Positions 6,746-10,111 of a DNA stretch of 32,364 nt are shown piece after piece. The notes under the pieces are model-generated. The model worked only from the letters and a program-made list of their open reading frames with translations, was not told the origin of the DNA and made no database searches. The stretch is from a virus. The DNA lies in the IMG/VR virus record IMGVR_UViG_3300008952_000180, positions 1 to 32,364 of that record. One strand, written 5' to 3'. Made by a program: the position numbers and the translations under genes. Position 1 is the stretch's first letter. Each line of letters begins with the position of its first letter.

Positions 6746-6985
6746 ATGAAAGTAGAAAATAGAGGAGGCAAAAGAAAAGGTGCTGGTAGAAAACCTAAAT
6801 CAGAAGAGCTAAATCTTATAGAGAAATTAACTCCTTTAGAACCTTTAGCATTTGAAGCATTAGAGGCAGGATTAAAAAAAGGAGATTATAAGTATGTTCA
6901 GCTCTTTTATAATTATTATGCAGGTAGGCCTAAAGAAACTAAAGACATACATATAAACGAAGATCTGCCTATATTTATTGATTAA
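6746..6985 (+). CDS. Terminase small subunit-like DNA-binding protein (79 aa)
   Basis: The N-terminus GGKRKGAGRKPK (residues 7-18) is typical of phage small terminases and related DNA-binding proteins; the remainder is a helical stretch (about 35-60). The TAA shares its last base with the large terminase start (TAATG), a usual link between small and large terminase genes. At 79 residues it is shorter than most small terminases (about 100-180), so it may hold only the DNA-recognition and oligomer core. It is the first gene after putative promoter site a. Confidence 0.65.
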   Translation: MKVENRGGKRKGAGRKPKSEELNLIEKLTPLEPLAFEALEAGLKKGDYKYVQLFYNYYAGRPKETKDIHINEDLPIFID

Positions 6986-8154
6986 TGCAAATACAAAAAA
7001 CCTTAGCATTAGATAAACTAAGAAATCTAGATAAGAGAATAAAGATAATTAGGGGAGGATCTTCAGCAGGTAAAACAATAGCAATACTTATTATATTAAT
7101 TGACTATGCAATAAGGAATCCAGGATCTGAGATTAGTGTGGTATCTGAGAGTGTACCTCATTTGCGTAGAGGAGCTTTAAAGGACTTTCTAAACATCCTT
7201 AAAGCCTTGAATAGATATGATGAGAGAAAGTACAATAGAAGTACCTTAAAATACGAATTTCATAATGGTAGTTACTTAGAGTTCTTTAGTACAGATCAGC
7301 CTGATAAACTCAGAGGAGCTAGGAGATCTGATCTATTCTTAAATGAGTGTAACAATGTAAACTTTGATAGTTATCAGCAATTAGCTATAAGAACATCTAA
7401 TAATATTTGGTTAGATTATAATCCAACTAATTTATTCTGGGTAGATAAAGAATTAATAGGCCAAGAAGATACAGATTTCCTTACTCTTACTTATAAGGAT
7501 AATGATAGCCTCCCTGAAACAATAGTAAGAGAAATAGAGAAGGCTAAGTATAAAGCTAATACTTCTACATATTGGTCTAATTGGTGGAAGGTATATGGAC
7601 TTGGAGAGATAGGTAGTTTAGAAGGAGCTTGTATTCCTGATTGGAAATCAATAGATAAAATACCAACTGATGCTAGAATACTTTGTGCTGGATTAGATCT
7701 AGGCTATTCTGTAGATCCTTCTGTTATTATAAACCTTTACAAATGGAATGATGCTTATATCTTTGATGAGATCCTATATCGTAAAGGAATGTTAAATAGA
7801 GATCTAAGTTATTTCATTAGACAAAACAATATAAGCTATAATATATATGCTGATTCTGCTGAACCTAAATCTATCCAGGAGCTGAGAAACTATGGGCATA
7901 AAGTATTTCCTGTTACTAAGGGTAGAGATTCAGTTGTATATGGTCTTAACCTAATAAACCAAAATGAGATCTATATTACTTCAAGATCTAAGAATCTAAT
8001 AAGAGAGCTACAAGGATATGTATGGGATAAAGATAAAGAAGGCAATAACCTCCAGAAACCTACAGGCCTTCATCCTGATTGTATTGATGCTTGTAGGTAT
8101 GCTTTAATGATGGAATTAAAAAATCCAAACAGAGGTAGATACATAATAAATTAA
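6985..8154 (+). CDS. terL: Terminase large subunit (packaging ATPase and nuclease)
   Basis: The protein is 389 aa, normal for a Terminase_3/PBSX-type large subunit. Walker A is RGGSSAGKT (23-31), Walker B is LFLNE (117-121) with catalytic Glu121. The RNase H-like nuclease domain shows AGLDLGYSVDPS (235-246), Asp290 in YADSAEP, and HPDCIDACRYA (363-373) with the late metal-binding Asp. It cuts concatemers and drives DNA into the prohead through the portal (22013). Unusually, the portal gene is about 14 kb away, with the tail genes between. A promoter and a structured non-coding stretch follow directly. Confidence 0.95.
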   Translation: MQIQKTLALDKLRNLDKRIKIIRGGSSAGKTIAILIILIDYAIRNPGSEISVVSESVPHLRRGALKDFLNILKALNRYDERKYNRSTLKYEFHNGSYLEFFSTDQPDKLRGARRSDLFLNECNNVNFDSYQQLAIRTSNNIWLDYNPTNLFWVDKELIGQEDTDFLTLTYKDNDSLPETIVREIEKAKYKANTSTYWSNWWKVYGLGEIGSLEGACIPDWKSIDKIPTDARILCAGLDLGYSVDPSVIINLYKWNDAYIFDEILYRKGMLNRDLSYFIRQNNISYNIYADSAEPKSIQELRNYGHKVFPVTKGRDSVVYGLNLINQNEIYITSRSKNLIRELQGYVWDKDKEGNNLQKPTGLHPDCIDACRYALMMELKNPNRGRYIIN

Positions 8155-8172: not shown

Positions 8173-8203
8173 TTGATATATCCAATATTTAATTATATCT
8201 TTA
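8173..8203 (+). promoter_or_regulatory. Bacteroidota-type promoter before the structured non-coding stretch
   Basis: TTG at 8173-8175, 20 nt, TATCTTTA at 8196-8203. The downstream box is identical to that of the early promoter at 240-247. Transcription should start near 8210. Confidence 0.6.
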
Positions 8204-8375
8204 TGGCGTTGTTAAAGTCAGATCCCATTTAATATCGGATCGGTTGAGTGAGCAAAGGTCAAAGCAAGATACCTAACGAGGCAACAAAGGAGTTATCCTT
8301 AAATAGCAAAATGCTGCAAAAAGGTCGTAGCTACTCTAAGACAAATTAAAAGGCCTCTAATTTAAAACCAAACAA
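8204..8375 (+). ncRNA. Candidate structured RNA or long structured leader beside the large terminase
   Basis: This 172-nt stretch has no ORF longer than ten codons and is richer in G, C and CG steps than the genes around it. It follows a promoter of its own. Possible helices: GTTGTT (8208-8213) with GGCAAC (8280-8285); GATCC (8221-8225) with GGATC (8237-8241); AGGT (8256-8259) with ACCT (8271-8274); AAGGA (8287-8291) with TCCTT (8296-8300) closing a 4-nt loop; TAGCA (8304-8308) with TGCTG (8312-8316); the palindrome GTAGCTAC (8327-8334); and AAATTA (8343-8348) with TAATTT (8358-8363). No T run follows, so it may be either a separate RNA with a processed end or the 5' leader of the gene at 8376. 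I could not match it to a known RNA family. Confidence 0.55.
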
Positions 8376-8744
8376 ATGAAAATAATTGATGTTTATTCTA
8401 AAATGAGTGATTCTCTTAAAGAAGATAATCCATTAAAAACAATATGTAATAAAGATACAACAGAAATCTTTGATGCAGTATATAGCCCATATTCCAGGAG
8501 AGGCCAACATTATGTTGAATATAAGTTTATTTCTCCTGAATGGAATAGAACAATGTTCTTTGATCTATCAAAAATTTGTAGTACTGAAATAATATTTACT
8601 AGGAAATCAAATGCTCTTAGATTTGTAAAATTAGTAAATGCAGAAGGAGAATATATTGATACTGAAAAAAGAATAGTAGATTCACACAAATGGGATATTT
8701 TCTACACTCAAAAGCAATTAAATTTTATACAGAATGGGAATTAA
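8376..8744 (+). CDS. Unknown protein downstream of the structured RNA (122 aa)
   Basis: The start at 8376 comes directly after the structured stretch, so its translation could depend on that RNA. The protein is soluble, mixed alpha/beta, with no cysteine motif, membrane segment or known signature; a YSPYSRRGQHYVEYKF stretch (about 36-51) and a second strand-rich part (70-92) stand out. It overlaps the next gene by 11 nt. Function unknown. Confidence 0.75.
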   Translation: MKIIDVYSKMSDSLKEDNPLKTICNKDTTEIFDAVYSPYSRRGQHYVEYKFISPEWNRTMFFDLSKICSTEIIFTRKSNALRFVKLVNAEGEYIDTEKRIVDSHKWDIFYTQKQLNFIQNGN

Positions 8745-9322: not shown

Positions 9323-9395
9323 ACCACTTTTATTCATAGTTTGTTTAGGTTAGTTTGTTTGGTTAGTAGGCAGAGGTACAATTTCTGAGTGGTTT
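9321..9395 (+). promoter_or_regulatory. Possible anti-terminator helix or pseudoknot partner
   Basis: AAACCACT (9321-9328) is a perfect 8-nt complement of AGTGGTTT (9388-9395). This helix interlocks with the terminator helix at 9365-9371 / 9407-9413 (order A-B-A'-B'), so the two form either a pseudoknot or alternative structures. Between them is an imperfect direct repeat, TTTGTTTAGGTTAG (9340-9353) and TTTGTTTGGTTAG (9354-9366). Confidence 0.5.
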
Positions 9396-9423
9396 ATGTA
9401 TCTTTAGCCTACTTTTTTTTTTT
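9365..9423 (+). terminator. Terminator with a long internal loop
   Basis: AGTAGGC (9365-9371) pairs with GCCTACT (9407-9413), followed by a T run to 9423 (11 T). The 35-nt internal part is unusually long and contains one arm of the competing helix. It isolates the upstream small genes from the tail operon that starts with promoter site b. Confidence 0.65.
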
Positions 9424-9426
9424 AAG

Positions 9427-9457: not shown

Positions 9458-10111
9458 ATGAAAATAAAATTAGATATTCCTGGAAGTATGGATGATGTTT
9501 CTCTAAGAGATTATAAACACTTTTTAAAGATCCAGGAAAAGAATGATGATCCTAAATTTATAAGAGCTAAAATGCTTGAGATCTTTTGTAAGGTATCATT
9601 AAAAGAAGTATATAGAATGAAGTATAAAGATTCAGAAGAGGTAGCCTCCATATTAGATAAAACCTTTAATGATAAGCCTTCTTTAGTAAGGAAATTTAAA
9701 CTAGGAGAAACTCAATATGGTTTCCATCCTTCGTTAGATGATATGACATTAGGAGAGTATATAGATCTAGATACATATATTGGAGATTGGGATAATATTG
9801 AAAAAGCAATGAATGTACTATACAGGCCCATCCTTACAAGTATAGGAGAGAAGTATGCTATTGATGAGTACAATGTAGAGAATGATAAGTATTTATTAGA
9901 TATGCCTATGAGTGCTGTTACTTCATCAATTTTTTTTTTGATGAAACTAGGTCTGGATTTATCAAATCATATCCTGAAATCTTTGGAGGAGGGGGATCAG
10001 AGGGAGATTTATCAGCAGTATCTAACTTTGGAAAAAAATGGGGATGGTATAATGCGATTTGGGAATTATGTGGATCAGACATTACAAAAATTGAACATAT
10101 CACTAAATTAA
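9458..10111 (+). CDS. Tail assembly chaperone-like protein (short, unshifted product)
   Basis: This 217-aa protein has strand-helix units such as DDMTLGEYIDLDTYIGDWDN (about 94-113) and a helical part (ILKSLEEGDQREIYQQYL, about 173-190). This resembles the first tail assembly chaperone of Bacteroidota siphophages. Near residue 158 it passes a run of nine T (9931-9939) containing the canonical slippery heptamer T TTT TTG in frame (9934-9940). A second open frame, shifted by -1, continues to 10197, as in lambda gpG/gpGT. The unshifted C-terminus (LEKNGDGIMRFGNYVDQTLQ) also looks like real protein. The tape measure gene lies further downstream at 16195. Function by analogy and position. Confidence 0.6.
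   Translation: MKIKLDIPGSMDDVSLRDYKHFLKIQEKNDDPKFIRAKMLEIFCKVSLKEVYRMKYKDSEEVASILDKTFNDKPSLVRKFKLGETQYGFHPSLDDMTLGEYIDLDTYIGDWDNIEKAMNVLYRPILTSIGEKYAIDEYNVENDKYLLDMPMSAVTSSIFFLMKLGLDLSNHILKSLEEGDQREIYQQYLTLEKNGDGIMRFGNYVDQTLQKLNISLN
9931..9940 (+). other. Candidate -1 ribosomal frameshift site (T9G)
   Basis: The unshifted reading is ATT TTT TTT TTG, so T TTT TTG at 9934-9940 is a canonical X XXY YYZ heptamer. A second candidate, A AAA AAT, lies at 10033-10039 in the same frame. Slippage by -1 at either opens the frame ending at 10197. Polymerase slippage on the T run is an alternative. Confidence 0.55.

Follow-up and report, generated by a model that had tools for sequence, protein, structure and literature searches.

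The phi29 pRNA, a phage RNA similar in size to the element described here, is a component of the packaging motor. Viral IRESs of the intergenic-region and HCV-like types are compact, gene-independent RNAs with pseudoknots, placed a set distance from the start codon. In the T4 gp32 operator, a pseudoknot at the 5′ end precedes a leader that is unstructured and carries UUAAA/UAAA units (PMC535899), and phage HK022 has a leader RNA, putRNA, known to act on RNA polymerase (PMC9378689). In the Bacteroidia, the anti-Shine-Dalgarno tail is sequestered on the 30S platform (PMC9976891), and translation initiation is tuned by leader structure and upstream adenines (PMC6847099).

Here, we analyzed a 152-nt structured RNA element (about 8205 to 8356, plus strand) in IMG/VR virus record IMGVR_UViG_3300008952_000180. 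The window, that is, the whole stretch of DNA that was analyzed, spans positions 1 to 32,364 of this record (32,364 nt). The element was identified as such by its nhmmer relatives, an alignment of 25 sequences, covariation, and the lack of any Rfam match.

A promoter-led segment behind terL

The large terminase gene, terL (6985 to 8154), lies directly upstream of a Bacteroidota-type promoter and the element. Read directly from the sequence, this promoter (8173 to 8203, plus strand) consists of a −33 TTG (8173 to 8175), 20 nt, and a −7 TATCTTTA (8196 to 8203), confirming the TTG-N20-TATCTTTA of the original prediction. Relatives carry the promoter too, and its version in contig L007, TTG-N20-TATATTTG, is a better fit to the Bacteroidota consensus. 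Wherever a class A member has a promoter, its −7 box ends 8 nt upstream of the UUAAAGU motif (10 nt in L091 and L092). From this spacing, transcription would be expected to start at the 5′ end of the RNA.

No open reading frame runs across 8205 to 8375 in any frame of the window. The G+C content of the element is 40.1%, compared to 30.4% for the window, a level attained by 1.3% of 152-nt windows, and its 5 CG are a count attained by 0.2% of them. The predicted enrichment in G+C and CG and absence of an ORF thus held up in window-wide checks of composition and frames. The element is followed by an unstructured A/U-rich leader of 19 nt (8357 to 8375, plus strand), with UAAUUUAAA at 8358 to 8366, and then by the first gene (8376 to 8744, plus strand), whose 122-aa product has no Pfam or PHROGs match. 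Further downstream, an inverted TAGGC/GCCTA pair and then a long T run can be read from the sequence at 9340 to 9425, which may terminate the three-gene unit that follows the element.

Relatives of the element

Relatives were gathered from IMG/VR via TerL, the next gene, three DNA patterns, and then two further patterns, and true members were told from chance matches by nhmmer. Counted by the loop 3 motif described below, there are 47 distinct members on IMG/VR contigs of environmental DNA, a number that undercounts members with a diverged loop 3, since a near-exact motif was used in the collection. The segment had originally been matched to no known RNA class, and no Rfam 15 family matches the element: the window gave no family match at the curated gathering threshold and only chance-level matches at E values up to 10, and divergent relatives gave tRNA matches only, all outside the element.

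Searches beyond IMG/VR were likewise negative. With blastn, cultured phages and plasmids yielded nothing or chance-level matches only. A pattern scan of GTDB genomes returned 15 matches, none with the pseudoknot, and a covariance model run with stricter filters on 395 Bacteroidia genomes, a set holding no positive control, returned none at E values up to 0.01. In Flavobacterium phage FpV9, the nearest cultured relative by TerL, reading by eye revealed no element behind terL. The open-access literature, which leaves most subscription papers outside the search, contained no description of the element RNA that we could find.

Tandem pseudoknots supported by compensatory changes

The MFE fold of the element is ordinary (z = −1.0), with 32 of 200 shuffles equally good, and it misses the 3′ half because that half is pseudoknotted. 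The proof of the element is comparative evidence, not folding energy. The original prediction had proposed a structured RNA and named covariation as its test, and covarying base pairs were indeed found. In the fold revealed by covariation, which is missed by MFE, a 5′ domain (P1 and P2) is followed by two H-type pseudoknots in tandem, PKa and PKb.

PKb (8313 to 8356, plus strand) pairs 8313 to 8317 with 8327 to 8331 in stem 1 and 8322 to 8326 with 8352 to 8356 in stem 2. We scored its pairs (11 in all) in a gap-free alignment of 41 sequences (A1) restricted to PKb. Of the cells in these pairs, 93.8% were paired, compared to 77.2% in shuffled and 35 to 51% in slid alignments, and 74 cells had both sides changed, compared to 17 in the control. 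Stem 2, in which the hairpin loop pairs with the bases just 5′ of the leader, takes the form of 20 different helices among the 41 sequences. Loop 3 (8332 to 8351, plus strand; UACUCNNAGACAAAUYAAAA) is nearly invariant in A1, whose members were partly collected by this very motif. Upstream, PKa (8288 to 8307, plus strand) pairs 8288 to 8291 with 8296 to 8299 in stem 1 and 8292 to 8295 with 8304 to 8307 in stem 2; a pseudoknot of this type is present in 37 of 41 members, where mononucleotide shuffles lead one to expect 1.4. In a second alignment of 25 class A members (A2), P1 together with stems 1 and 2 of each pseudoknot was 96.7% paired, with 61 double changes compared to 17.5 in the control. 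These pairing controls allow for relatedness only in part, and the many distinct helix solutions are the stronger argument. Compensatory changes back all main helices except one that is invariant, and on this comparative evidence the element is a conserved structured RNA.

The 5′ domain (8208 to 8285, plus strand) is closed by P1 (8208 to 8211 with 8282 to 8285), which is paired in 100% of the 25 sequences in A2, 7 of them with G-C to A-U double changes. Within it, the P2 hairpin (8221 to 8241, plus strand) joins GAUCC at 8221 to 8225 with GGAUC at 8237 to 8241; this pairing was taken from the sequence and the MFE fold, as our script gave an alternative 8-bp pairing in the window. All 24 other class A members have a 5-bp hairpin at this position, in about eight different Watson-Crick sequences. 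For the GNRA-like GUGA at 8248 to 8251 (plus strand), which is GCGA or GCAA in relatives in A2, we infer a tertiary role. A further possible hairpin (8256 to 8274, plus strand) would pair AGGU at 8256 to 8259 with ACCU at 8271 to 8274; both are invariant in A2, so covariation is silent on it either way. The 5′ domain varies by class (e.g., L098, L103, L106/L282, L125, L139, and L232), and PKb and the leader are retained.

The window also carries the palindrome GTAGCTAC at 8327 to 8334, originally suggested as a site for dimers. A dimer is not supported, because relatives have GCACCTAC or GCAGCTAC in its place and because its bases are used by stem 1 and loop 3 of PKb.

A fixed distance to the start codons of unrelated genes

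An ATG lies behind the element in all 47 distinct members. From the end of loop 3, this ATG is 24 nt away in 23 members, 23 nt in 20, 25 nt in 2, and 26 nt in 2 (standard deviation, 0.74). After subtraction of the 5 nt of stem 2, the distance from PKb to the ATG is 18 to 19 nt in 43 of 47 members and 18 to 21 nt in all 47. At the same loci, promoter-to-ATG distances without the element were much more scattered, with a median of 27 and quartiles of 20 to 43, a rough control in which false promoters are included. The genes that follow are of no common kind: by blastp at 1e-4, the first genes of the 47 members fall into 27 unrelated families, and those that we checked have few Pfam or PHROGs matches, mostly none. 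We saw no ORF or terminator between element and gene, and no Shine-Dalgarno platform. The idea that element-led genes have unfavorable start contexts was unsupported (A at −3, 0.54 compared to 0.47 in the control).

The original prediction included a riboswitch-like leader for the gene at 8376. Its leader part is upheld by the fixed start codon spacing in all 47 relatives. The element is not riboswitch-like in the ordinary meaning of the term, as the downstream genes are unrelated and we saw neither a terminator nor a Shine-Dalgarno platform. We also rejected a metabolite riboswitch, which requires downstream genes with a common pathway, the first genes here being unrelated. Against reading the element as a leader, the UAAUUUAAA motif is also present in element-free leaders of sister phages, and since the motif and the rough leader length are common to element-free genes, the fixed spacing may partly mirror the general leader.

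Among described systems, the T4/RB69 gene 32 operator has a similar order of parts: close to the 5′ end of the mRNA lies a pseudoknot, and after it comes an A/U-rich leader that is unstructured, contains UUAAA-like units, and runs to the start codon. By analogy, a putative phage or host protein would bind the pseudoknot here, spread over the leader, and block initiation until conditions change. The fixed spacing is compatible with such an operator, and the pseudoknot is followed by a UAAUUUAAA leader much as the T4 pseudoknot is followed by its UUAAA/UAAA leader (PMC535899), although this likeness is one of architecture only. The T4/RB69 operator has one small pseudoknot, one gene (ssb), and a leader of over 40 nt, whereas the element joins two tandem pseudoknots to a 5′ domain and is followed by an 18- to 19-nt leader and unrelated genes. 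Moreover, T4's operator is autogenous, preceding gene 32 itself, whereas here the first genes belong to 27 unrelated families and each contig has a single element copy, and UAAUUUAAA is found in element-free leaders as well. We therefore regard a gene 32-like operator as unlikely. Relevant to the gene 32 comparison, the protein encoded at 1203 to 1589 of the window has no Pfam match and ends in an acidic GDLPF tip like those of single-stranded-DNA-binding proteins. The product of 2483 to 2962 has a weak match to sigma-70 region 2 (E value, 1.4e-4; below the Pfam cutoff) and could be a phage sigma-like factor.

HK022 putRNA is, like the element, a structured, cis-acting phage leader RNA just 3′ of a promoter. 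Compared by architecture, the element begins at its promoter and heads polycistronic clusters, as might be expected of a put-like antitermination RNA (PMC9378689) or an mRNA stabilizer that opens an accessory operon at its 5′ end. For neither role, however, need the first start codon lie at a fixed distance, and such AUG spacing is not a feature of put, which acts on RNA polymerase; nor is there a known downstream terminator to be read through. Both roles are in our estimation very unlikely.

Genomic context, gain, and loss

A model of the PKb region (R1) found one copy in each of 25 element contigs and zero in two other contigs. Where the flank was long enough, most members have terL on the same strand upstream of the element, either next to it or as much as about 5 kb away. 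On the maps that we read, the element stands at the head of a series of small accessory ORFs that usually ends at a conserved gene like that at 9458 of the window; two members (L277 and L274) have it in other surroundings.

We asked how closely the element follows the terminase. Of 80 TerL relatives, 6 had too short a flank to be used; among the other 74, the element is present in 9 and absent in 65. On the TerL tree, its presence or absence needs 7 changes, at least 6 of which are forced by supported branches. L002, the nearest to the window (TerL, 99 to 100% identical), has the promoter and leader but no element behind terL, and phages with TerL 98 to 100% identical lack it at the window's place; contigs being fragments, a copy elsewhere in the genome is conceivable, although a second site was seen in 0 members. 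The same-strand terL upstream and the single copy per contig are what a packaging RNA, the original speculation, or a component of the terminase machinery might display, but the presence and absence of the element between near-identical phages argues against it: unlike the phi29 pRNA, the element leads into genes and can be missing from lineages whose TerL is nearly identical, and in some members it lies 2 to 5 kb from terL, before unrelated genes. It is almost certainly not a packaging RNA. For another early suggestion, a decoy of host regulation, we found no evidence.

The slot behind terL holds other RNAs as well. In nine relatives (L028, L033, L034, L038, L042, L043, L045, L046, and L056), promoter-to-terminator units of roughly 180 to 600 nt lie directly behind terL; they have no evident ORFs, share blocks that are gained or lost whole between relatives, and, in the five whose units were searched against Rfam, gave no match. 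Each appears to be an array of undescribed RNAs. In one subclass (L104, L131, L149, L276, and L278), the element itself is preceded not by a promoter but by other ORF-less RNA segments. A tRNA-like RNA with a T-arm, possibly a tRNA mimic, stands directly before the element in L276 (10069 to 10180), L278 (about 1390 to 1462), and upstream in L131; that of L276 scores 33.7 bits against Rfam tRNA yet draws no ARAGORN call. A second common RNA block, AATGTT..CGAAAGC..GTATGAAA, lies between the terL-side promoter and the element in L149, L104, L131, and L278.

In other phages, this slot is filled by ORF-less RNA arrays that end in terminators and gain or lose whole modules. The element could accordingly be a small RNA that acts in trans, an exchangeable module like several others behind terL, and the gene after it would then be incidental. 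Its own rapid gain and loss fits this reading, as does the subclass in which it sits inside such an array, in some cases beside a tRNA-like RNA; that subclass also counts against a leader. The constant spacing of 18 to 21 nt before the start codon in all 47 members does not fit a trans-acting RNA, and no terminator or defined 3′ end was found after PKb; we judge a trans-acting RNA distinctly unlikely. Another point against the leader reading is that L007 and L008 have a homologue of the window's 8376 gene directly behind the promoter, and presumably express it without the element.

Proposed role as a cis-acting leader RNA

On balance, and with confidence only a little better than even, we favor the reading that the element is a gene-independent, cis-acting 5′-leader RNA that tunes translation initiation of the accessory gene that follows. 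Start codon spacing that is fixed whatever the gene would be expected of an element acting at the site where the ribosome starts. Transcription would begin at the first bases of the element or just inside it, and the RNA would fold into the 5′ domain and the tandem PKa and PKb. Ending 18 to 19 nt 5′ of the start codon, PKb would come to lie near the mRNA exit of the 30S subunit when the AUG is in the P site, a geometry that follows from general knowledge of the 30S footprint. There, PKb could tune initiation on whichever accessory gene comes next, regardless of that gene's sequence. The ribosome contact is putative, as is the sign of its effect. Since Shine-Dalgarno pairing is little used by Bacteroidota ribosomes, we lean slightly toward a positive role in which the element docks on the ribosome; an off switch controlled by a protein is nearly as likely.

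The fullest form of this idea, in which the tandem pseudoknots dock on the Bacteroidota 30S subunit at the mRNA exit, position the start codon, and replace Shine-Dalgarno pairing, is one that we put forward as doubtful. With viral IRESs, the element shares pseudoknots and a set, gene-independent distance from structure to start codon. IRESs serve eukaryotic ribosomes, whereas the element comes from a bacterial virus, its ribosome contact is putative, and its place at the mRNA 5′ end means that entry would not be internal. If docking proved true, the element would be a natural gene-independent ribosome-recruiting RNA, a bacterial counterpart of viral IRES-like elements.

The element represents an undescribed, well-supported family of pseudoknot RNAs of uncultured phages, tied to start codons rather than to one gene, and the slot downstream of terL is home to other undescribed RNA modules. 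It is an active question how the ribosomes of the Bacteroidota, without Shine-Dalgarno pairing, select their start sites, and the element offers a compact RNA, with clear mutations to make, for asking whether phages manipulate that choice.
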